Position numbers and translations under genes: made by a program. From a virus: a stretch of 35,940 nucleotides of DNA. The stretch is from IMG/VR virus record IMGVR_UViG_3300005605_000008, positions 1 to 35,940 of that record, one strand, 5' to 3'. Below the pieces are notes generated by a model. It was not told where the DNA came from. It worked only from the letters and a program-made list of their open reading frames with translations, and did no database searches. Below, piece after piece: positions 9,466-20,815 of the stretch (position 1 is the first letter of the stretch; the number at the start of each line of letters is the position of its first letter).

Positions 9466-9846
9466 TTAAAATTTATTTTTCCATTTTGGATATTCTTTAT
9501 TAGCCCATTTTTCAGCATCTTCTTCAAATTTATTATCATCGTGAAAATCACCACCTTTTTGTATAGCTAATTCACCATATTGATGATATAACCTTTCATA
9601 TTTTTTAGCACCCATTTTCTTTCTATCTAAAGCGTGTTTTATTTCGTGTAAAACCGTTATAATAAAATCCTTGACAGTTGGGTAACTTTTTCGTAAATTT
9701 ATAGTGTCAGTTGTCCAATTATAATCACCCTTATCTTTACCAGTAGTAATTTTAACTTTAGACTTTAACTTATGTAGTTTTACAATCTGTTGAGCTGTAT
9801 CAACAATATCCATTCTTTCTATTAATAAATTTTTTAATTTAATCAT
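9466..9846 (-). CDS. HExxH metallopeptidase-like protein with MIKLK N-terminus
   Basis: A 126-residue protein starting MIKLKNLLIER. The zinc-binding helix is VLHEIKHALD (H67, E68, H71). A later acidic helix, KFEEDAEKWANKEY (~107-119), could give the third ligand (E108, E109 or E112), as in ImmA/IrrE-type or other gluzincin folds. The middle has a DTINLRKSYP strand-turn typical of small zincins. There is no signal peptide or membrane segment. The start overlaps the end of the PAP2 gene by 8 bases. The N-terminal leader with L-I-E at positions 8-10 matches three neighbouring genes and looks like a capsid-targeting peptide with a prohead-protease site, which would make this a head-packaged peptidase. 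The peptidase call is good; packaging is inference. Confidence 0.72.
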   Translation of the reverse strand: MIKLKNLLIERMDIVDTAQQIVKLHKLKSKVKITTGKDKGDYNWTTDTINLRKSYPTVKDFIITVLHEIKHALDRKKMGAKKYERLYHQYGELAIQKGGDFHDDNKFEEDAEKWANKEYPKWKNKF

Positions 9847-10471
9847 GTTTAAAAGCTCTATACATAATACCAGCTATTTTCTTACCATATTGTTTATCTG
9901 ATGGGAAATGTGCTTTTGCTAATAATCTACTTTGTGCTATTGCTTCACTCAACTGGTCTATCTGATTTGACATAGTTGGTAAATAAGATTTTAAAACCCA
10001 ACCAACCAAATATCCTTGAACTGCATGACCACTTGGATATGATGGTGTTTTCATACTATCTAATTTAGTTCCATTTAGATTCATACCATAAAACTCTGCG
10101 ATTTGATATGGTCTTGGTCTATTGTATTTATACTTCAAATATAAAATATCTCTCGAAGATTGTTTAACAACACTTTCAATCAATTCAATATATTCTTCTT
10201 CATTTATTCCATTTTGATCTAATAATTCACCAAAAGCTTTGGGTATATCATCATAAAGTTCGATAGACTCTCTATCACCTTCTTCTAAATTAGTTATATA
10301 TTTAAGTTCTTTTAAAGTTGTTTTACTATCATTTTCTGGAGGTAACTGCTGTGGGAAAACCATTACAGAAAAATTAGGGGCTTCCTTAACCATCTTTTTT
10401 TTATGTTTGGGTTTAATGACATTTGTATATTTCATTTCCCTCAAAGTAAGTAAATCTTTTAACTTAATCAT
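9839..10471 (-). CDS. Soluble PAP2-superfamily phosphatase with MIKLK N-terminus
   Basis: From ATG 10471 the product is 210 residues. An upstream ATG at 10492 is possible, but 10471 forms an ATGA overlap with the preceding stop and gives the MIKLKDLL leader shared with neighbours. All three PAP2 / vanadium-haloperoxidase signatures are intact: K113-x6-R120-P121 (KYKYNRPRP), PSGH at 146-149 and S181-R182-x5-H188-x3-D192 (SRLLAKAHFPSD). No clear transmembrane helices are visible, unlike lipid phosphatases of the PgpB type, so it is more like soluble class A acid phosphatases. The substrate could be a phospholipid headgroup, a nucleotide or another phosphomonoester. The leader contains L-R-E at 10-12, a candidate gp21-type cleavage site. 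A PAP2 enzyme delivered with the genome would be unusual. Confidence 0.85.
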   Translation of the reverse strand: MIKLKDLLTLREMKYTNVIKPKHKKKMVKEAPNFSVMVFPQQLPPENDSKTTLKELKYITNLEEGDRESIELYDDIPKAFGELLDQNGINEEEYIELIESVVKQSSRDILYLKYKYNRPRPYQIAEFYGMNLNGTKLDSMKTPSYPSGHAVQGYLVGWVLKSYLPTMSNQIDQLSEAIAQSRLLAKAHFPSDKQYGKKIAGIMYRAFKHD

Positions 10472-10842
10472 CTTTGTAACCACTTCTTCCATAAACTATA
10501 ATCAATAATGTTTGAAGTTTTTGGTTCTAAATCTTTTGGTTTACCAGTACCTCTTTTTTTAATATTAATTGTATAGGCTGTTTTACCTTTTGGATTTATA
10601 ACAAATACTCCACCAGGAAGATTACTAATTTGATATCCTTTTGCTACAAAAAACTTCAGACTTTCTTTTTTATAAATCATTTTATTTCCACCAGGACCCG
10701 CAGTAGACAATTGTCCAGTTGGTTTACTATTACTACCAAGTATGTAAACATAAAAAGGTCTCTTTACGGTAAAATGTTGAGTATCACTGCCGTATAATCC
10801 GTGTTTATATGCTTCTTTTATTAAATCTTTTAATTTAATCAC
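10468..10842 (-). CDS. Hypothetical protein with MIKLK leader, GTG start
   Basis: A 124-residue protein. The start is GTG at 10842, forming GTGA with the stop of the gene before it. The leader MIKLKDLIKEA closely matches three adjacent genes and contains I-K-E, a good fit to the [IL]xE consensus cut by T4-type prohead proteases. The rest is basic and beta-rich (FYVYILGSNSKPTG, GGVFVINPKGKTAYTINI), with Gly/Pro turns and no cysteine, signal peptide or membrane helix. No enzymatic motif is recognised. Its place between two other leader-bearing genes and the tight overlaps suggest the four are made together, plausibly as internal head proteins. Confidence 0.75.
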   Translation of the reverse strand: MIKLKDLIKEAYKHGLYGSDTQHFTVKRPFYVYILGSNSKPTGQLSTAGPGGNKMIYKKESLKFFVAKGYQISNLPGGVFVINPKGKTAYTINIKKRGTGKPKDLEPKTSNIIDYSLWKKWLQR

Positions 10843-11156
10843 TTTAGTGCCCTCATTACATCTATTGGTTTTACATTCTCATCACCCATATAAGCTATAT
10901 CTTCTGGGTTTTTAATAATTTTTTTGATTGTGTTTTTTTCTCTTGATGTTAATGTTATTGGTTTTTCATCTAACGACATTCCAGTTGCATATCCAACTCC
11001 ACTAACATATTCTCTTCTCATATTGAAATAAACGACTTTCCACTTACCAGCTGGAGCTCTATCTACAACTAATTCAACTTCTTTACCTCTACCACCTAAC
11101 CCAACACGAGCTGAACCTACTTTAATTTCACTTATTAATTCTTTTAATTTAATCAT
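10839..11156 (-). CDS. Hypothetical basic protein with MIKLK leader
   Basis: The 105-residue product starts at ATG 11156, which overlaps the preceding stop as TAATG. A longer reading from 11171 adds only MGKKI and would break both the coupling and the shared leader. The leader MIKLKELISEI includes I-S-E, a candidate prohead-protease site. The body has a strand-rich section (KWKVVYFNMRREYVSG) and a C-terminal helical part (TSREKNTIKKIIKNPEDI). Overall it is basic, without cysteines, signal peptide or catalytic motif. Function is unknown. It is the first of the four leader-bearing genes in transcription order. Confidence 0.75.
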   Translation of the reverse strand: MIKLKELISEIKVGSARVGLGGRGKEVELVVDRAPAGKWKVVYFNMRREYVSGVGYATGMSLDEKPITLTSREKNTIKKIIKNPEDIAYMGDENVKPIDVMRALK

Positions 11157-11308
11157 TATCTTCTTCCCCACATTGGTGTTTGAACTCCTTTTTCTTCTTG
11201 TTTAGCTAAATATTTTTTATGTTGTGCTGAAGTTCTACCCTCAGTAGCCCATTTCTTGTTTAGTGCTGCTTTTTTACGTTTTCTATCTTTTGCTTTTCTA
11301 TTTGGCAT
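11156..11308 (-). CDS. 50-aa strongly basic hypothetical protein
   Basis: A short frame encodes 50 residues beginning MPNRKAKDRKRKKAALNKKW and ending GVQTPMWGRR, with about one third Lys/Arg. It is predicted to be one or two charged helices with no hydrophobic core, consistent with a nucleic-acid-binding or intrinsically disordered peptide. Both ends are TAATG overlaps: its ATG shares a base with the thioredoxin-like stop and its TAA shares a base with the next ATG. Perfect tiling between two genes is the main reason to accept it. Function is unknown. Confidence 0.75.
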   Translation of the reverse strand: MPNRKAKDRKRKKAALNKKWATEGRTSAQHKKYLAKQEEKGVQTPMWGRR

Positions 11309-11718
11309 TAGTTAGTACTCCTTCTTCTTTTATTTGTTGGTGGATAATCTATACCCATTTTTATATCTATCTCAGTAACTGCATTCTTACCATCAATAGT
11401 TGCTTTCCATTTTTTAATAGGTTTACCATCTTTATATAAAACTACAGATGGAAATGTTCTCAATTTATTTCTACGTGTTTCTCTGGGTGTATCTTTCGTA
11501 TCTGCGTGAAATATCTTCGTACCTTTATGTCCCTCTATACCCATAAACTTATCTATACTACATACACCAGCCCATCCTGCACAAAACTCAACTACAGAAA
11601 ACCCTTTTGCTGTCTTTACTGCAAAATCTGCATCCGTTATAGGATTTTCTTTCTTCACTACCTCATATTGTGCACTTAATGAACCAATCATCATTAACAT
11701 CATTAACATTTTTCTCAT
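11308..11718 (-). CDS. Exported thioredoxin-fold protein with degenerate active site (AxxC)
   Basis: A 136-residue protein with an N-terminal signal peptide (MRKMLMMLMMIGSLSAQ, cleavage expected before Q17). The thioredoxin fold is seen in the strand VVEF, the active-site loop at 46-53 (CAGWAGVC) and the cis-proline loop TFPSVVLYKDGKPI (P90). The usual WCxxC has become W-A-G-V-C: the nucleophilic first Cys is Ala50, Cys53 remains, and an extra Cys46 sits three residues before the Trp-Ala pair. It therefore probably cannot act as a normal dithiol reductase but may bind, hold or isomerise partners in the periplasm. The tail (NKRRRSTN) is basic. It lies between the MshEN-domain gene and the basic peptide gene in the envelope module. 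Confidence 0.8.
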   Translation of the reverse strand: MRKMLMMLMMIGSLSAQYEVVKKENPITDADFAVKTAKGFSVVEFCAGWAGVCSIDKFMGIEGHKGTKIFHADTKDTPRETRRNKLRTFPSVVLYKDGKPIKKWKATIDGKNAVTEIDIKMGIDYPPTNKRRRSTN

Positions 11719-12296: not shown

Positions 12297-12530
12297 TTAT
12301 GAGCTTTTTTTCCCGCCCATAACTTTTTCTACTCCAGCTATTCCGAAACAACCTAATGTAATATATAGAAAACTATTATACACAAAATCGTTTATGGGTA
12401 ATTCCATACCGAAATATCCAGTTACCAAGTCTGTCATACTATACATAGTCATGACAGCAAATGACATAAAACCTATTATTGTTTTTTCGTTAAAATCATT
12501 CTCATCTTTGAAAATGTCTTTGAATGCCAT
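12297..12530 (-). CDS. Putative holin (77 aa, two transmembrane helices)
   Basis: A 77-residue protein with a charged N-terminus (MAFKDIFKDENDFNEKT), two hydrophobic helices (~18-39 and ~47-68) joined by a short loop (GMELPINDF), and a polar Lys/Ser C-terminus (GGKKSS). Size and layout match class II holins, which open the inner membrane to time lysis. A similar N-terminal motif is, from memory, common in small membrane proteins of marine T4-like phages. No endolysin was recognised in the window; the nearest enzyme-like neighbour is the 104-aa Cys-His-Asp protein. Holin function is inference from form. Confidence 0.6.
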   Translation of the reverse strand: MAFKDIFKDENDFNEKTIIGFMSFAVMTMYSMTDLVTGYFGMELPINDFVYNSFLYITLGCFGIAGVEKVMGGKKSS

Positions 12531-12927: not shown

Positions 12928-13242
12928 CTAACGTGGTGGTTTTAAATCCCAAGGTCCCCAATGTTTCTTTCTCAATACTTTTATACTCACTTGTTCAGGA
13001 GTATACTTATAAAGTTTAGTTCCCTTTACAGGTGCTTTTAATAAAGCATAATATAATTGTTTTGGAAAATTAATATCATTTCCATTACTCTTATCAATAC
13101 ATTTTCCTTTGTATTCTACCCAACAATGTCCAAATGGTTTTCCATCGGTTTGAAGAATACCAACTCCATGTACTAATCTAGCTGAATCATCCATACCGAT
13201 AATTTCTCTACCATTAGCAGCGTAACAATCTCCTTTTGACAT
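12928..13242 (-). CDS. 104-aa protein with possible Cys-His-Asp catalytic triad
   Basis: The protein begins MSKGDCYAANGREIIG and contains GHCWVEYKGKCIDKSNG at 38-54. Cys6, His39 and Asp50 occur in the order and local settings (G-D-C-Y at a helix start, H in a strand, D in the next strand) seen in papain-like or transglutaminase-like small enzymes. Two more Cys (40, 48) are present. The C-terminus is basic and aromatic (KKHWGPWDLKPPR). It could be a cysteine peptidase, amidase or lysis enzyme, or a non-enzymatic relative. I recall similar short GHCWVEY proteins in marine phages but know no function. Its start shares a base with the stop of the 40-aa gene. Confidence 0.65.
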   Translation of the reverse strand: MSKGDCYAANGREIIGMDDSARLVHGVGILQTDGKPFGHCWVEYKGKCIDKSNGNDINFPKQLYYALLKAPVKGTKLYKYTPEQVSIKVLRKKHWGPWDLKPPR

Positions 13243-13364
13243 TATGGTAATTTACTCCAAACATCCATAAATCTTATAAATCCATACATAATATACATTA
13301 AAATACTTCCTGCCGCTACATGTAATAAATATTCAATTGTATTTAATATTGTTTCAATCTTCAT
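13242..13364 (-). CDS. 40-aa single-pass membrane peptide
   Basis: A short frame encodes 40 residues: a short N-terminal helix (MKIETILNTIEYLLH), one hydrophobic helix (~16-33) and a short tail ending DVWSKLP. The start overlaps the previous stop as ATGA, and the stop overlaps the next start as TAATG. Small membrane peptides in phage late regions often aid lysis or modify the envelope, but nothing specific can be claimed. Exact tiling supports translation. Confidence 0.68.
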   Translation of the reverse strand: MKIETILNTIEYLLHVAAGSILMYIMYGFIRFMDVWSKLP

Positions 13365-14080
13365 TTCCAATCCCATATTTTAACTAAATTATAAGTTACT
13401 CCTACACCTATAGTTGGTGTAGTTAATCCAGTATCACTATTATATAGAATACCTAACATTGGTCCTATTGAAATTTGATTTCTCGGTGGTTTTATTTTCA
13501 ATATCTCACTACTACCACCTTTTATTTTCAAATTCAAAAATTCACTATCAGGATAGATTGCTCTATATTCATATCTATCCAATTTTTCTAATTCAGGTGG
13601 ACCTAAATTAAGTTCACCTGAAAAATCGGCTATTGTTTTAGATTCAACTATTTTATTATCACGAATCCGTAAACCAGTTCTGCCGAACACTTTTATATAA
13701 TTATCTTGTGTTCCAAATTCCTGTAAAAATGGAACAGTAGATGACTCATAACTTAATAAATCTAACTGTAAAGCCTCTACGGTATCAATCAAATTTTGTA
13801 ATCTTTGTTCGTATTCTTTACTCCAACGAACTATATCATATAAATCTTTAGATAATCTCTTTAGTTGTTGTTCTTGAGTATCACTATCTATTTGTAATCT
13901 TCTCGTAACTGTAGATATACTATCAATTGAAGATTCATTTTTAACTATAAGTTGTTCTTGTCTTGTACTATCTTCTTTTAGAAAGTCGTATTCTTCTTTA
14001 GCATATTTATATCTTATTGTAAAAATAGATAAAACAAATATAACATTTATAGCTATACCTAATAAGGTATCTTTTGTCAT
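13361..14080 (-). CDS. Inner-membrane-anchored coiled-coil protein with beta C-terminus
   Basis: A 239-residue protein. Residues ~6-24 form one transmembrane helix, ~28-110 a long coiled coil (TRQEQLIVKNESSIDSIS onward), and ~130-239 a beta-rich domain ending in GPMLGILYNSD and TPTIGVGVTYNLVKIWDWK. The ending resembles a pair of outer-membrane-type strands. A single anchor, a periplasm-length coiled coil and a C-terminal beta unit could bridge inner and outer membranes, as i-spanins and efflux adaptors do. It is coupled (ATGA) to the CsgG-like gene before it, so it may form a complex with the CsgG-like proteins. No family was recognised with certainty; similar proteins occur in phages of Bacteroidota. 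Confidence 0.62.
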   Translation of the reverse strand: MTKDTLLGIAINVIFVLSIFTIRYKYAKEEYDFLKEDSTRQEQLIVKNESSIDSISTVTRRLQIDSDTQEQQLKRLSKDLYDIVRWSKEYEQRLQNLIDTVEALQLDLLSYESSTVPFLQEFGTQDNYIKVFGRTGLRIRDNKIVESKTIADFSGELNLGPPELEKLDRYEYRAIYPDSEFLNLKIKGGSSEILKIKPPRNQISIGPMLGILYNSDTGLTTPTIGVGVTYNLVKIWDWK

Positions 14081-14715
14081 TTTAAACTTACCGACGCGTC
14101 ATCTATTGCTTTTCTTAAAGCACCACCCAATTCACTATTACTAAAAGGAACACCATCTTCTTCAATCTGTAAACCTGTAGCAGATATCTTTGTATCAATC
14201 TCACCCATACCTCTACTTGTGGTTACTTTACCAGTAGCATTCTCTGTTAATAATATATTCAACCTTACTTGTGTTTTTGTTTTTCTACGATTGAATATAC
14301 CAACAATACTAAATGCTTCGTTTGGTCTACCAATATAAACTATCTCTGCTGATACTGTAAAATTAGCATCACTATCATCAGTTAAAATATAATCTGATTC
14401 TTGAAATGACTCTTGTAATAGTTGTTGTATTCCCATAGTGATTCTATCATCTTTGATACCAACATTCTCACTCGTACCTACAAACTTAGATACAGTTAAT
14501 GTTGGTCTAATTAAATCAGCATCTATAATCGCTGGAACTGGTAGATTTTGAGCTTTAGCTTCTTGTCTTGCCTGTTCTCTACGTTCATTAGCTTCATTTT
14601 TCATCCGTTGTATTTCTACTTGAGCAGTAGCAACACTACATAATGTAATTGTTAATACTCCTAAAGTAAATATTTTGAATCCCAAACGTAATACTTTAGT
14701 TTTAATATAATTCAT
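14077..14715 (-). CDS. CsgG-like secreted protein (second copy)
   Basis: A 212-residue protein with a signal peptide ending ATAQ (~32), a charged helix (EIQRMKNEANERREQARQEA) and a C-terminal domain of CsgG type. The domain has RPTLTVSKFVG, a MGIQQLLQESF helix, ANFTVSAEIVYIG, then KTQVRLNILLTENATGKV and GGALRKAIDDASVSL. These follow the order of elements in CsgG: first strand, helix, GSI strand, membrane hairpin region, TGEI strand and final helix. There is no lipobox Cys at the cleavage site, unlike canonical CsgG and the sibling at 15733-16395. CsgG forms nine-subunit export pores in the outer membrane for curli. The ribosome site is GGGGAT. Assignment is by eye and homology is remote; LpoB-like is another possibility. 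Confidence 0.6.
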   Translation of the reverse strand: MNYIKTKVLRLGFKIFTLGVLTITLCSVATAQVEIQRMKNEANERREQARQEAKAQNLPVPAIIDADLIRPTLTVSKFVGTSENVGIKDDRITMGIQQLLQESFQESDYILTDDSDANFTVSAEIVYIGRPNEAFSIVGIFNRRKTKTQVRLNILLTENATGKVTTSRGMGEIDTKISATGLQIEEDGVPFSNSELGGALRKAIDDASVSLK

Positions 14716-14726
14716 ATTTATATCCC

Positions 14727-15725
14727 CTAAAAATAAGTTCCAAATAAAATACTGAAAGTCTTATCTCGTTCCCCATAATCATTAACTACGGTGTTATATC
14801 CCATTGAAACACCTAAATTAAAGGAGAATGCCGTACCTAATTTCCAATCCATTGATATAGTTGGCATAAAAATGATAGGACTTCTCAGTAATAAATATCT
14901 ATCATCTGGATTATTACCTTCATAATATCTCCACAAAGTATAAGCAATATAGTTAGAAAAAGTAATTGTATTACCACCAATTATTTTAAATGGAAATCTT
15001 TGTCCATATACCATTGTTATATTTGCAAAGTCATTACCACTAACACTTCCATAACTACCTGTTAAAACGAATGCTTCTGCGTTTTTCTTCTGTAATGATT
15101 TCGCAAATGAAGTAGATAATAACCAATCCCATCCCTCAAATGTTTTATATGTTAACCCACTTCCATTCAATACTACGTTTTGTTTTTTAGCTGTAAATTT
15201 AAATCCTTGTCCATATGTAAGAGAACCTTTTCTTAAATCATCTGTAAAGTTAAAATTACCATCGTGTCGTTTACTACCATCAAATGATGTTGCAGTATAG
15301 ACACTATTAAAAGATGTTATCCATCTTTCTTCACCTTGTGTAGAACGAATTGCATAATTTACCTGTTGTGGTGTAGATGAAATATCTTCTCCACCACCCT
15401 CATCTTTACTAAATTGTTCACTAACATTTTCTGCAATTACTGATGATAATATTTCTTCAGCAACTTTTACGGCACAGGGAAATAAGTCCTCAAAGTCTTT
15501 ATAAACACTTTGTGTCCATCTTTCTAAATCACCATTTAATACTTCTTGTAATGTAAAGAACTTAGTACGATTGTAGTAAGTTACGTGAAATCCTTGTTGT
15601 TCACCACTAATTACTACATTAGTACGAACTACAGTTTGTTCACAAGGGTCTATATAAGAATAGAAGAATGATTGGGCAGAAACACTACTCCAAAGTAAAA
15701 AAATTAATATAAGTTTCTGCCACAT
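14727..15725 (-). CDS. Secreted outer-membrane beta-barrel-like protein (332 aa)
   Basis: The signal peptide (MWQKLILIFLLWSSVSAQ) is followed by a small N-terminal domain with two Cys in IDPCEQT and LFPCAVKV, likely a disulphide. A linker rich in Glu/Asp/Gly comes next. Residues ~125-332 alternate polar and hydrophobic residues with aromatic belts (WITSFNSVYTATSF, LTYKTFEGWDWLLSTSF, TFSNYIAYTLWRYYEG), and the C-terminus ends in Phe (ILFGTYF), the standard outer-membrane barrel signature. It sits between two CsgG-like genes, so a role in the same export or surface structure is likely. I do not recognise a named family. Confidence 0.65.
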   Translation of the reverse strand: MWQKLILIFLLWSSVSAQSFFYSYIDPCEQTVVRTNVVISGEQQGFHVTYYNRTKFFTLQEVLNGDLERWTQSVYKDFEDLFPCAVKVAEEILSSVIAENVSEQFSKDEGGGEDISSTPQQVNYAIRSTQGEERWITSFNSVYTATSFDGSKRHDGNFNFTDDLRKGSLTYGQGFKFTAKKQNVVLNGSGLTYKTFEGWDWLLSTSFAKSLQKKNAEAFVLTGSYGSVSGNDFANITMVYGQRFPFKIIGGNTITFSNYIAYTLWRYYEGNNPDDRYLLLRSPIIFMPTISMDWKLGTAFSFNLGVSMGYNTVVNDYGERDKTFSILFGTYF

Positions 15726-15732
15726 TCATCTT

Positions 15733-16395
15733 TTACCAACCTCTTCGGTCAATTGCTTTTATAACATTGACTACGGCGGTCTCCATAGCTTTATTTGATG
15801 CGGAACTTAAAGAACTTTGATTCCAAGCCATATTAGGATTCATAAGAAATCCTTTACCTATGGTTGAAGCTCTTCCTTGACCACTACCAACAACATATTG
15901 TGTATTCTCATTGTTAATTAATTTAACCTGAATACCAACTATTGTTTCATTGATAGTCTCCACCTTACCAGCTTTTATTTCTTCTTTTAGATTGACAGCA
16001 AAATCATAAATACTAACACTTGCTGAATACTTAGCTTTTGTTATCTTTGCATCATTTGCTCTCAAATCATTCATAATCAAAAGTTGCATATCTCTTTCCG
16101 CTTCTACTAAATTAAATCTCCCCACATAAGATATTACATTTTGAAGTTCTTGAACCAAACCCATAGAAACTCTTTTGTCTGCTAATTCAGGGTATCGTTC
16201 TTCTAACTCTTTGTTAAACTTTAAATCATAAAGTTTTAATCCATCAACTTTTGTTACTACGATTTCATCTAAAGATTTTTCTTTTTCATACTCACCTACA
16301 TATTGTTCTGTTTGAACGGAAGCGGCACATCCTATTATATTGGATACAACCAAACCGAAAACAAAAAACAATATAAAACGATAATTGTTTTTCAT
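15733..16395 (-). CDS. CsgG-like outer-membrane lipoprotein
   Basis: A 220-residue protein with a lipoprotein signal peptide whose lipobox is I-I-G-C (C23). The mature part has DEIVVTKVDGLKLYDLKF, a helix with RVSMGLVQELQNVI, FNLVEAERDM, a SASVSIYDFAV strand, ETIVGIQVKLINNENTQYV and a GSGQGR strand, ending with a NKAMETAVVNVIKAI helix. This follows the layout of CsgG-family lipoproteins, which assemble outer-membrane channels; CsgG-domain genes have been reported in marine viruses. The Gly/Ala/Met/Asn-rich stretch before the last helix fits a membrane-inserted hairpin. It has a strong ribosome site (AGGAGATAAC). With its sibling at 14077-14715 and the barrel gene between, it may build a phage-specified export or surface channel. 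Confidence 0.62.
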   Translation of the reverse strand: MKNNYRFILFFVFGLVVSNIIGCAASVQTEQYVGEYEKEKSLDEIVVTKVDGLKLYDLKFNKELEERYPELADKRVSMGLVQELQNVISYVGRFNLVEAERDMQLLIMNDLRANDAKITKAKYSASVSIYDFAVNLKEEIKAGKVETINETIVGIQVKLINNENTQYVVGSGQGRASTIGKGFLMNPNMAWNQSSLSSASNKAMETAVVNVIKAIDRRGW

Positions 16396-16404
16396 TGTTA
16401 TCTC

Positions 16405-16797
16405 CTATTTAAAATCTGCTAATGGATCTTTAAGTAATTTTTCTAATTTCTTAATTTCACCTTTTAGTTTATCAATCTCATTGTTTAATTTCATTACATC
16501 TTTATCATAAGATTTAACTTTAGGTGTTTTTAAGTTATCAAGTTTATCACGAAGATATTTAATATCCTCATCATATCCATCTAACTTAGATGTTACTAAT
16601 TCTATATCACTTGCTTCTGCAAAACCATCTACAACTTCTTCTAATCCATCAATACGACCAGTAAATGAATACCAACCTGCTATTCCTGTTGATAGAACCG
16701 TTACGAGGGCTATGATATTTTGGATTGATAATCCGAACTTTTTGTTCTTCATATCTTCTATTGCGGATTCTGCATCCACTACTTTTTTCTTCGCCAT
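16405..16797 (-). CDS. Membrane-anchored coiled-coil protein (130 aa)
   Basis: Residues 1-24 are a charged cytoplasmic section, ~26-46 a transmembrane helix (NIIALVTVLSTGIAGWYSF), and ~50-125 charged coiled coil (YDEDIKYLRDKLDNLK and LNNEIDKLKGEIKKLEKLL). No cysteine or lipobox is present. Spanin-like or secretion-adaptor roles are possible. It lies between the PorV-like barrel (1-base gap) and the CsgG-like lipoprotein, so it is likely co-made with them. Its plan echoes the 239-aa protein at 13361-14080 and the C-terminal part of the MshEN protein: three single-pass coiled-coil proteins in one module. Confidence 0.68.
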   Translation of the reverse strand: MAKKKVVDAESAIEDMKNKKFGLSIQNIIALVTVLSTGIAGWYSFTGRIDGLEEVVDGFAEASDIELVTSKLDGYDEDIKYLRDKLDNLKTPKVKSYDKDVMKLNNEIDKLKGEIKKLEKLLKDPLADFK

Positions 16798-16798
16798 T

Positions 16799-17659
16799 TT
16801 ACAACTCCAGGTTTATTGTTAATCTAATTGTGTTACTCAAAGGTAACTCTCTATTACCATAAATATAACTCATACCTATCAAATACTTGTCATACTTAAA
16901 ATCTAATCCAAATGTTGGATAAGTTAGTTCGTGTGTAGTATCTAAGTAATATCCTAACTTCCCCCACAACATATTTTTATAATTATAACTTGTCCCCATA
17001 CCAAATGTTTGATGTTTTTTCATTTTATTAAATTGTCCATAAAACATAAAATCTTCATATGGATATGTTCCAGCTATATTTACACTTGTAGGTAGTTCTG
17101 ATTTATACCCACCAAATTTAGGTGCAAATCCAAAGTTATTAATCATAACATCTAAATATAAATCTTTGTATACTTTTGGAAAATAAGCACCCACACCAAA
17201 AACAAATCCATTTGCTTTTTGTGTATGTAAATCGTGTGTTATTATCTTTGCATTTAATCCTAAATTATATTTACCAACTTTACGTGCATAATCAACACTA
17301 TATATAGCACTCAATGGTGTAAATGTTCCTTGTATAATTCCATTTTCATCTGCTTGATTTTGTTCTCCATAATTAAAGAACATAACATTAACACCAAACG
17401 GACCTCTATCCATATTTATAAAATTATAATTCATATCACTTACAATATTAGTCATCCAATTTACTCTACTAAAACTGAAATGGTCTTTGTTATATAAATT
17501 ACGAGCTGGATTCATCATTGGTAACATTACATTACCTATCGAACTCGTTTGAGCCGTAGGTGCTACTGTTAATATTCTATTTGCTTGTGCCAATAATTGA
17601 CTACCTAACGATAGTAATATTGCCAAACCAAATAATATCCAAAATTTATTTTTTCTCAT
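16799..17659 (-). CDS. PorV/UPF0164-like outer-membrane barrel (T9SS-associated)
   Basis: A 286-residue protein with a signal peptide (ending SQLLAQ). The N-terminus of the mature part has the pattern seen in PorV/PorQ and UPF0164 barrels: a region starting AQTSSIGNVMLP, NPARNLY (NPA), then FSRVNWMTNI. Alternating strands run to a C-terminal TIRLTINLEL. Family members are FadL-like 14-stranded barrels; PorV carries T9SS cargo from the translocon to the attachment complex. The gene lies just downstream of a T9SS-sorted protein, separated only by a 38-aa peptide gene that overlaps both. A PorV-like role for the phage cargo is therefore attractive, but the match is remote, and PorP/SprF or a generic barrel cannot be excluded. 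Confidence 0.55.
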   Translation of the reverse strand: MRKNKFWILFGLAILLSLGSQLLAQANRILTVAPTAQTSSIGNVMLPMMNPARNLYNKDHFSFSRVNWMTNIVSDMNYNFINMDRGPFGVNVMFFNYGEQNQADENGIIQGTFTPLSAIYSVDYARKVGKYNLGLNAKIITHDLHTQKANGFVFGVGAYFPKVYKDLYLDVMINNFGFAPKFGGYKSELPTSVNIAGTYPYEDFMFYGQFNKMKKHQTFGMGTSYNYKNMLWGKLGYYLDTTHELTYPTFGLDFKYDKYLIGMSYIYGNRELPLSNTIRLTINLEL

Positions 17660-17762
17660 TTTTTCTCTCTATTTTTTCAGAAACCCAAACAATAAATTTC
17701 AAGGTGAAATATAATGATGGAAGCATTACAGCTATAGCGAAGAAAAATTGTAATTCACTCAT
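17646..17762 (-). CDS. 38-aa single-pass membrane peptide between T9SS cargo and PorV-like gene
   Basis: A short frame encodes 38 residues: MSELQFFFAIAVMLPSLYFT and a basic tail (VWVSEKIERKNEKK). It has one transmembrane helix and a positively charged C-terminus, suggesting N-out/C-in orientation. Its ATG shares a base with the stop of the T9SS cargo gene (TAATG), and its last 14 bases overlap the start of the PorV-like gene. This overlap at both ends is the case for a real, coupled gene. Function is unknown; accessory to secretion or lysis is possible. Confidence 0.65.
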   Translation of the reverse strand: MSELQFFFAIAVMLPSLYFTLKFIVWVSEKIERKNEKK

Positions 17763-20700
17763 TATTTCACCACCGTAAATTTACTTGACTTAATTCTATT
17801 ATCTGTTTGCATTACAAATATATAAACACCAGGTTCTAACTTTTGATGATTTTCATACACACTAACTCCAGGTAGAAAAACACTTGGTTCATTAGTAAAT
17901 TCAAAAGTATGTAATCCCTGTAATATGTGTTCATCTAATAATGTTCCAACTCTCTGTCCTATTGAATTTAAGATATATAATTTTACATCTTTTGATTCAT
18001 CTAAAAAGAATTGGAATGTTGTGTTCTCCATAAAAGGATTTGGATAATTGTATGTTATTGCTTCTTCATCTGGTTTTCCACCACCGAATGCCCAATACTT
18101 ATTCCATACTAATACTTCACCATCTTTTCTTTCCATAGTCAAATCACGACCTGATGGATTACCTGCTGCGTGTTTACCTACAAATCGTATTGGAGCATTT
18201 GTCCATTCAACATCAGGAAATGTTGCTTTGAAAAGTAATTTTAATCCTACCATCTCTTGACTTATATGATAAGTTTCAGGTGCATTATTTGGTGAATAAT
18301 CCATACCACCAAATGAAATTCTTTGCCATCCATTTTTAGGTTCATGAACATTCACATAAGTCATCCAGGGTCCTGGTAAAACATCTGTTTTCATATCTAT
18401 AAATTCTAAACCACTACTATCACCCTCTGCTAATTTATACTCTACTTCAAATTCAAATCCTGCTATAAGAACTCCCTCTTTTGGTGTAATCGTTAAAGGA
18501 ACTTCTATCTGATTACCAGATTGAACTCTAACAGTAGAATCAGCAGGTAAAGAAAGAACTACATCTGTAATTCCATCTGCAAAATCATCAAATGAATCGA
18601 ATCCATTTAAAGTATTGTTAGGTTCATCATTATCTGTATTAATTTTTTCTGCGTGTCTTGATGGTGCACTATTTCCCCAACGATAAAATGTAGAACCCTC
18701 ATTATCAATATATCCATCACTAACTGTACCTGCTTGTGCTTTAGTATAATCTATGTTCGCTGAACCGTTAAGTGTTGTTTGATGTCCATGACCCGTTGTT
18801 GTTCTACCAGTTTTACTGTCATCTACTTCGTGAACTTTTGTTCCTGTCATATTAATATCACCTGTAAAATAATATGCTATATCGGGCATTAGGTAATCTG
18901 GATTACCAGCTTGGTCATTTTTTTCACTTGTTCTCGCTGCACTCCAAGAAGAATACCCAGCACCTAATACTAAGTGAAGTGTATCCAATCCTGTTTGGTG
19001 GTCATCCATTAATGGATTTAAAATTTCTATCACTCCAGGTGTCAATGCTCTTTGATTTGTAGCTAAAGCTCTCGTTGTAGCCATTGGTGATTTTTTTCCA
19101 GCGTTAACTCCTGATGACCTATCTCCTCCAGTACTTGATTCTGCGGTTGTGGTCTCATCCCAAAAAACTGTAAACTCATATTTCTGTGGTCTTGATTGTC
19201 CGTTTACTGTTTGATAATATACATAGTTATTAGCGTTTCCACTTTCTTTAAATACTTCAATTGTAGACCAATCTTCGTGAGACCTACCAGTATGGTGTGT
19301 ATAGTTATTCATTATTCCTGATACATAAGACCATAAAATATATGTGTCATTTAGTTGAAATAAATCATCACCATCTACATCACCAACCAAATATTCAAAT
19401 GCAGTCATAGTATCTATTCTTGTACCAGGAGAATCTCTTGTTCCTGTATTATAATTCTTAAATTTATTTGATTGAAAATTAAATGAAGCTATAGCATCAC
19501 TTACATTTGTAATAGCTCCTCTATTTACATCAAAATGGTCATGTGTTTCTATATAATCACTTTCATCAGGTGGCCAAAATGAAATACGATATCTATTGTT
19601 TCTTGGTAGTTGAATGTTATAATATCCTTTGTCGTCTGTATAAGTTGAATCATAATAAGAGATACCAAGAAATCCCTCACCAGGTAAAGTTTGTTCTGCT
19701 GTAGAAACTGTACCATTAGCTGCTTTCTTATTAAATTGAAAAGTTGATGAATGGTCTCCAATAACATCATCAGTTGTAGTCTCATCTGATTTTTTAGCTG
19801 CTGTGTTTCCTGAATGGTTAGCTATTGTTTCATAATTCAACCAATTAGTTATTCTCGGATTAAAGTTAGCTTCATTGTGGTCTAACTCAAATTTTACTTT
19901 CCAATATGGATATGTGTTTTCTATAGGACCTCTTTCCCAAGCTGGTGAACCATCAGCATAATCCCATACTGCTCCCATACCTCTACCATTACCTTGAATG
20001 TATCTGAAGTATCCCTCAACATCTAATAGTTTTGGGTGTAGTGTAATATCACCACGTGCATGACCTATACCATCTTCGTGTGTTCCCACATTACCATCTA
20101 TATAAACTTTATATGATGTTAAATAATTTCCATTGGTTACATAAGTATAATATCCTGCCGCACCCTCATATTTTGTAGCCACTCGAAATGACTTGGGTGC
20201 AAAGTTATCTGCAACATCATCTACTTTAAAATGTAGTTTTAATAATTCTGTTTGATTTCCGTTACCATTACCGAACGTATGTGTACCACCATTATGTGAT
20301 ACCATTGTGATTCTTAACCAATCATAACGGTTGTTAGCTGCCGATTTTTCACTACCTGCAGTTTGTATTGAATCCACGTATCCCACATTATTATACCAAG
20401 TTACCTCATATGAATAATGATGTCCACTTTCTGCATTATCACCCTCAGTCCAACCTGATATGTACGCACCTTTTTCTACACGAACTGAATCGTGTCCTGT
20501 AAGAGTTGTATTATTCCAAGTAAATATATCATTGTCGAATACTAAATCCAAACGAAAAGCAGTTACACTAGCTCCATTATCATCAAGTGTAACAGCAATA
20601 GTCATTACTGAATCTCTCCACGCATCAAAATTATTATTCTTATATGCAGGTGTACCTGGTGCATCAGCCAAGTATGTTCTCAATGGTTGAGTAACTTGAT

Positions 20701-20815
20701 CTCTCCACCAAAACTTTGGTGTTTTGTAATCTCTCGATTGCATTAATCTTATGATGGGTGTTTGAGCTTGTAGCAAACCCACCAACATTAAGAAACTTAT
20801 TAGAAATTTCCGCAT
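17762..20815 (-). CDS. Large secreted protein with T9SS type A C-terminal sorting domain
   Basis: A 1017-residue protein with a signal peptide (MRKFLISFLMLVGLLQAQ). Residues ~60-230 resemble a cohesin-like beta sandwich (VTAFRLDLVFDNDIF). Around 385-430 is a carboxypeptidase-regulatory-like fold (DDKGYYNIQLPRNNRYRISF). GDVDGDDLFQLNDTYILWSY near 480 looks like a dockerin-type calcium loop. Residues ~780-900 resemble a second cohesin-like sandwich (VPLTITPKEGVLIAGFEFEV). Residues 922-1017 are a Por sorting domain with YPNPF (924-928), YILNSIGQRV, QGLHTFEF and LEPGVYIFVMQ...SSKFTVVK. Such domains send proteins through the T9SS to the cell surface, so this product should be displayed or released by the infected host. 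It follows the virion genes after a 125-base gap and heads the envelope module. No enzyme motif was recognised. Confidence 0.85.
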   Translation of the reverse strand: MRKFLISFLMLVGLLQAQTPIIRLMQSRDYKTPKFWWRDQVTQPLRTYLADAPGTPAYKNNNFDAWRDSVMTIAVTLDDNGASVTAFRLDLVFDNDIFTWNNTTLTGHDSVRVEKGAYISGWTEGDNAESGHHYSYEVTWYNNVGYVDSIQTAGSEKSAANNRYDWLRITMVSHNGGTHTFGNGNGNQTELLKLHFKVDDVADNFAPKSFRVATKYEGAAGYYTYVTNGNYLTSYKVYIDGNVGTHEDGIGHARGDITLHPKLLDVEGYFRYIQGNGRGMGAVWDYADGSPAWERGPIENTYPYWKVKFELDHNEANFNPRITNWLNYETIANHSGNTAAKKSDETTTDDVIGDHSSTFQFNKKAANGTVSTAEQTLPGEGFLGISYYDSTYTDDKGYYNIQLPRNNRYRISFWPPDESDYIETHDHFDVNRGAITNVSDAIASFNFQSNKFKNYNTGTRDSPGTRIDTMTAFEYLVGDVDGDDLFQLNDTYILWSYVSGIMNNYTHHTGRSHEDWSTIEVFKESGNANNYVYYQTVNGQSRPQKYEFTVFWDETTTAESSTGGDRSSGVNAGKKSPMATTRALATNQRALTPGVIEILNPLMDDHQTGLDTLHLVLGAGYSSWSAARTSEKNDQAGNPDYLMPDIAYYFTGDINMTGTKVHEVDDSKTGRTTTGHGHQTTLNGSANIDYTKAQAGTVSDGYIDNEGSTFYRWGNSAPSRHAEKINTDNDEPNNTLNGFDSFDDFADGITDVVLSLPADSTVRVQSGNQIEVPLTITPKEGVLIAGFEFEVEYKLAEGDSSGLEFIDMKTDVLPGPWMTYVNVHEPKNGWQRISFGGMDYSPNNAPETYHISQEMVGLKLLFKATFPDVEWTNAPIRFVGKHAAGNPSGRDLTMERKDGEVLVWNKYWAFGGGKPDEEAITYNYPNPFMENTTFQFFLDESKDVKLYILNSIGQRVGTLLDEHILQGLHTFEFTNEPSVFLPGVSVYENHQKLEPGVYIFVMQTDNRIKSSKFTVVK

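Follow-up and report, generated by a model that had tools for sequence, protein, structure and literature searches.

A conserved phage gene block linking a CsgG-like protein pair and a predicted outer-membrane barrel to a type IX secretion cargo

A previously unannotated block of phage genes ties a pair of CsgG-like proteins and a predicted outer-membrane barrel to a cargo protein of the type IX secretion system (T9SS), in marine as well as freshwater phages. The genes S, A, B, C and D constitute an obligate block across 68 distinct phage loci and are present in the window analysed here, a viral DNA stretch of 35,940 nucleotides (IMG/VR record IMGVR_UViG_3300005605_000008; Table 1). We see an even chance that the block represents a phage-specific envelope module, which would use an outer-membrane complex for export or anchoring to display the phage-coded S on infected Bacteroidota cells. 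A Bacteroidota host is suggested by the T9SS, in agreement with an isolate that infects Flavobacterium and with a phage contig binned in a Flavobacteriales MAG.

Table 1. Genes of the block and the neighbouring holin-like gene in the window (TM, transmembrane segment).
Gene	Position	Strand	Predicted product
S	17762..20815	-	1017 aa, putative secreted T9SS cargo; dockerin-like repeat aa ~468-522; cohesin-like domain aa ~761-900; type A C-terminal sorting domain aa 924-1015
P	16799..17659	-	286-aa outer-membrane beta-barrel of the PorV/PorQ family (T9SS shuttle family)
A	16405..16797	-	130 aa, one TM followed by a coiled-coil tail (sequence, alignment)
B	15733..16395	-	220-aa lipoprotein with predicted CsgG fold; lipobox IIGC at Cys23
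C	14727..15725	-	332 aa, signal peptide, N-terminal domain with Cys28/Cys84, predicted outer-membrane barrel of ~12 strands
D	14077..14715	-	212 aa, signal peptide, without lipobox; CsgG-like paralogue of B
E	13361..14080	-	239 aa, N-terminal TM, coiled coil, conserved beta-rich C-terminus
H	12297..12530	-	77-aa holin-like protein with two TMs

The initial annotation had described a cluster of five minus-strand open reading frames between 16797 and 13361, and all five (A to E, lettered in the order of transcription) were located there with the features it ascribed to them. They are arranged head-to-tail and tightly packed, D and E overlapping by 4 bases. The proposed start of the cluster at 16797 had to be revised, as S and P directly upstream are part of the same operon. 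A comparison with three to four relatives shows purifying selection on all five, with pN/pS values of 0.17-0.21 (A), 0.05-0.26 (B), 0.19-0.28 (C), 0.29-0.33 (D) and 0.30-0.38 (E). These values (0.05-0.38), together with the A-B-C-D-E order that recurs in all sufficiently long marine relatives, indicate that A to E are real genes and not chance open reading frames. B is under the strongest purifying selection in the block, and S and P are under the loosest (pN/pS 0.22-0.65), as expected of surface-exposed parts.

Scans of viral contigs retrieved close marine relatives, and tblastn identified the isolate Flavobacterium phage vB_FspM_immuto_2-6A (immuto), in which gp017 shares 30% identity with B. 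With gp017 added to the alignment, at least 174 relatives were found, on contigs of up to 343 kb; the best 80 were used and, after removal of duplicates, gave the 68 distinct loci, 30 of marine type and 38 others, for which 'freshwater' serves as shorthand and not as a determination of habitat. The marine loci follow the order S-P-A-B-C-D-E, and the others S-A-(H)-B-C-(L)-D-(M), with variants. A conserved gene order in relatives had been set beforehand as a condition for the envelope-cluster reading, and it is strongly evident: on sufficiently long contigs of this set, S precedes B in 59/59 (marine 26/26, others 33/33), C follows B in 61/61 (marine 27/27, others 34/34), and D comes after in 48/49 (marine 19/19, others 29/30). 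Reverse searches located B downstream of S in 53/53 cases and downstream of P in 30/30; the forward and reverse tests share some contigs and hence are not fully independent. The surroundings of the block vary, with replication genes beside it in immuto and tail and holin-like genes beside it in the window, and this shifting context suggests that it moves as one unit.

The seven consecutive immuto genes gp013 to gp019, mostly annotated as hypothetical, correspond to the same block: a C-type lectin (gp013), a cohesin-like protein (gp014), a protein with cohesin and T9SS tail domains (gp015), a TM protein (gp016), B (gp017), C (gp018) and D (gp019). In contrast to the window, immuto lacks E and the PorV-like P, and its S is divided into gp014 and gp015. 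P and E are confined to the marine clade; being absent from the freshwater branch, they are dispensable for the core. A is present in every complete marine locus, and since no relationship between marine and freshwater A is detectable (6%), the two are positional analogues only. Many freshwater phages encode M, a secreted HExxH metallopeptidase-like protein (for example L094:11729-12181), either preceding S or following D.

Profiles of B, C and D retrieved nothing from ~390 other genomes of the class to which the Flavobacteriales MAG belongs, although rare cellular copies are possible; the exception in this sample is the one phage contig binned in that MAG, which carries the block. The Pfam CsgG family PF03783 is present in 11/80 genomes sampled from the class. 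A closely related phage block (L082) was binned in a MAG labelled Gammaproteobacteria, likely owing to a binning error.

With TIGR04183, the model for the type A sorting domain of the T9SS, the window S scores 26.8 bits versus a cut-off of 23. Its matches to the Pfam cohesin and Por_Secre_tail (PF18962) models remain below cut-off but pass it in relatives: both the cohesin and the T9SS tail domains exceed the Pfam cut-offs in immuto gp015 and in freshwater S, to which the window S is homologous. From these sequence signals we infer that S would be secreted through the T9SS. P matches the PorV/PorQ family model NF033709 with 97.1 bits (cut-off 90), as do 17/18 of its relatives, whereas it scores 48 and 61 bits with the equivalog models for PorV and PorQ, which are narrower, and does not reach their cut-offs. 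The profile of P also recovers the solved PorV of F. johnsoniae (6h3i; E 1.5e-8). Phages thus carry a T9SS family component and not cargo alone. Searches with P and S by tblastn against isolate phages yielded no matches, and neither a phage PorV nor the present block turned up in the open-access literature, subscription papers and preprints being mostly outside the search. Phage-encoded T9SS cargo has been reported for Cryophage (PMC7468147), whose cargo proteins, like S, bear type A sorting domains of the T9SS; the available sections of that source, however, describe variable, stand-alone genes (glycoside hydrolases, PA14) and mention neither PorV nor a CsgG/barrel block. In freshwater phages the block also includes a gene for a C-type lectin, whose dockerin match is weak. 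An HMM search of the window detected no homologue of the lectin or of the secreted peptidase.

The two CsgG-like proteins that were initially noted on either side of the barrel withstood closer analysis by profile-profile comparison and, for B, by modelling. The Pfam model PF03783 matched neither B nor D, singly or across all members, and both proteins lie outside the CsgG family in Pfam's definition. Single sequences of B, C and D gave nothing above chance with Pfam, PHROGs and NCBIfam, and PDB sequence-profile searches returned nothing or chance matches only. By contrast, the B profile aligned to a CsgG alignment in hhalign with 95% probability (E 3.7e-8), whereas two alignments of unrelated proteins, used as controls, reached 6% and 0.3%. 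The CsgG alignment comprised five sequences (E. coli as a query, HTVC008M, Melnitz and two bacterial members). The predicted structure of B is of low confidence (pLDDT 55.8, pTM 0.49); in Foldseek it matched PelC first (9e-8) and CsgG next (2e-6) with a probability of 1.00, and in VIA-align CsgG was on top (Z 11.9, 167 residues, 3.4 A), followed by LptE, DUF330 and PelC at Z near 9-10.7. The second BFVD match to B is A0A516KWP5. On the basis of the profile comparison and this low-confidence model, B is predicted to have a CsgG fold. D aligned weakly with CsgG directly (12.6%, profile-profile), yet with B at 98.6% (hhalign), and the two gave reciprocal HMM matches within the window of 1.1e-5 and 2.3e-5. 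As judged from sequence, B and D are paralogous to each other, and D very probably shares the CsgG fold.

C had been described as a secreted barrel with an N-terminal cysteine pair; in support, Cys28 and Cys84 are conserved in every aligned member. Its AF2 model (pLDDT 59.9, low confidence) consists of a small N-terminal domain holding both cysteines, a helix and ~12 strands. FapF is the best match in Foldseek (1.6e-4), where barrels match broadly, and the best VIA matches, which include CymA and EspP, have Z values of 12-15.7, no more than a barrel of such size would give in general. C is accordingly modelled as an outer-membrane barrel and might have a role in translocation. Similar to the functional-amyloid secretion barrel FapF, C combines an N-terminal domain, a linker and a 12-strand barrel; at 10% identity, however, the resemblance is that of generic barrels, and no Fap partners were seen. 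In freshwater C, a low-complexity linker of 200-300 residues rich in Ser, Thr, Asn and Gly separates the N-terminal domain and helix from the barrel. We also considered C as a classical autotransporter, in view of the alignments with EspP and NalP, and dropped this candidate because the freshwater linker intervenes between helix and barrel and such alignments are common to all barrels of 12 strands. Near the block, positions 11308-11718 (minus strand) encode a secreted thioredoxin-like protein with the motif CAGWAGVC (TIGR01068, 0.00027, below cut-off), which could act on the cysteine pair of C.

Among the roles suggested in the initial annotation, export of a phage surface protein has gained in plausibility, since the neighbouring S combines a T9SS sorting signal with a cohesin domain. 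An export and display function is further favoured by the obligate two-way linkage, the T9SS signals, the fold of B, the paralogy of B and D, the modelled barrel of C, the purifying selection on all genes, the movement of the block as one unit, the precedent of PelB and PelC, and the absence of B, C and D from the ~390 sampled genomes of the class outside the binned phage contig. In such a module, S would be exported via the host T9SS, in marine phages aided by the phage's own PorV-like P. A lipid anchor would hold B in the inner leaflet of the outer membrane, and B and D could form periplasmic rings beneath the C barrel, comparable to PelC beneath PelB, to give a complex for export or anchoring. 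From the inner membrane, A, and in marine phages also E, may extend up towards it. This complex might either export companion proteins such as the dockerin-lectin of freshwater phages or anchor a coat of S, linked through cohesin/dockerin contacts and joined by lectins in some phages. The likeliest benefit would be an altered surface of the infected cell, chiefly against superinfection and secondarily for aggregation. A role of S, B, C and D as virion parts appears unlikely, as all four carry signal peptides.

The PelB-PelC exopolysaccharide exporter, in which a ring of 12 PelC lipoproteins is described at the outer-membrane exporter PelB (PMC12141448), likewise pairs a CsgG-superfamily lipoprotein with one outer-membrane barrel gene, as B and C do. 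The likeness seen is one of fold, however; C lacks a long TPR-like region, and neither a sequence relationship nor polysaccharide genes were seen. It is possible, if doubtful, that the block is a dedicated viral machine for surface display, in which a pair of CsgG-fold rings and a barrel would assemble and anchor a T9SS-exported, cohesin/dockerin cross-linked coat on infected cells, in some phages with lectins, the phage contributing its own PorV-type T9SS shuttle; if true, this would be unlike any machine described. In the papers we found, phage CsgG has hitherto been reported in curli operons of proteobacterial phages, with roles unsettled. Immuto, an isolate with a cultured Flavobacterium host, makes the role of phage CsgG-type envelope machines directly testable.

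Several observations speak against the display function. Both structure models, of B and of C, are of low confidence (pLDDT 56 and 60). The lipobox, present in B of the window and of most relatives, is missing from D and from B of immuto and several other phages. What links S to B, C and D is synteny only, and S could use the host T9SS without them. Finally, the holin-like genes in or near the block fit a role in lysis as well.

Lysis is the main rival on account of H and E, although we consider it unlikely. A and E would tie in the inner membrane in the manner of spanins, B, C and D would be their outer-membrane partners, and together with the neighbouring holin-like H they would disrupt the outer membrane when the infection ends. 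The window H is matched at 1.3e-42 by an HMM built from a freshwater 93-aa protein, and holin-like H lies just after E in the window and, in many freshwater phages, separates A from B, being tied to the block in only part of the relatives. E, with its TM and coiled coil, shows weak similarity to DUF6808 (8/18 members, best 0.0025; window E below cut-off) and to Rz-like spanins and LysB, and a lysis role has been proposed for methylophage CsgGF (PMC9004378). The spanin/LysB matches, however, fall within the coiled coil and far below cut-off, the immuto endolysin is annotated elsewhere (gp236) with the block adjoining replication genes, and the obligate T9SS cargo is left unexplained.

We regard it as rather improbable that B and D assemble into a TraT-like oligomer at the outer membrane or cell surface that blocks incoming phage or DNA, with S as an added shield. 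TraT is indeed a decameric surface-exclusion lipoprotein (PMC11733297), and a few D members weakly match the Pfam families TraT (PF05818; 2/21, best 0.02) and Lipoprotein_16 (0.01). These matches are confined to 2-3/21 members overall, and the fold searches of B put CsgG, LptE and PelC first; TraT is not among the matches listed for B by Foldseek and VIA.

Curli operons exist in phages, including pelagiphages (PMC7029224, PMC9004378, PMC9599517), and those of the HTVC008M, Melnitz and HTVC023P type (curli/T8SS) likewise hold a CsgG-fold protein in a conserved envelope operon. The initial comparison with CsgG-bearing marine phages nevertheless does not amount to kinship, as the pelagiphage and methylophage operons have a different gene set (CsgF, curlin repeats and FecR) and are devoid of C, D and T9SS genes. 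Their CsgG proteins, unlike B, are clear members of the family with ~40% identity to E. coli CsgG. That B, by virtue of its fold, is the CsgG pore of a diverged curli-like T8SS, secreting an amyloid-like fibre subunit for aggregation ('sibling capture'), is very unlikely: family-model searches found no match to CsgF, CsgE or curlin repeats among the block genes and neighbours, the block has a separate barrel gene, and by eye the first hairpin of B is similar in length to that of CsgG, whereas the second is ~11-12 residues shorter and lacks VFRF. The hydrophobicity of the hairpin faces of B speaks neither for nor against pore-forming hairpins.

Two further features were noted downstream of the block. 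Four consecutive minus-strand genes at 9466-11171 (9466, 9839, 10468 and 10839) share the motif MIKLK[DEN]L[IL] at or near their start and include, by eye, an HExxH protein and a PAP2-phosphatase-like protein; the same start occurs in 25 varied proteins across the 30 marine-type relatives. In T4, packaged internal proteins bear a capsid-targeting leader, and by analogy the motif looks like such a leader of packaged internal proteins. Positions 12928-13242 (minus strand) encode a small protein with weak transglutaminase-like similarity (0.1), which adjoins the block in some marine relatives.
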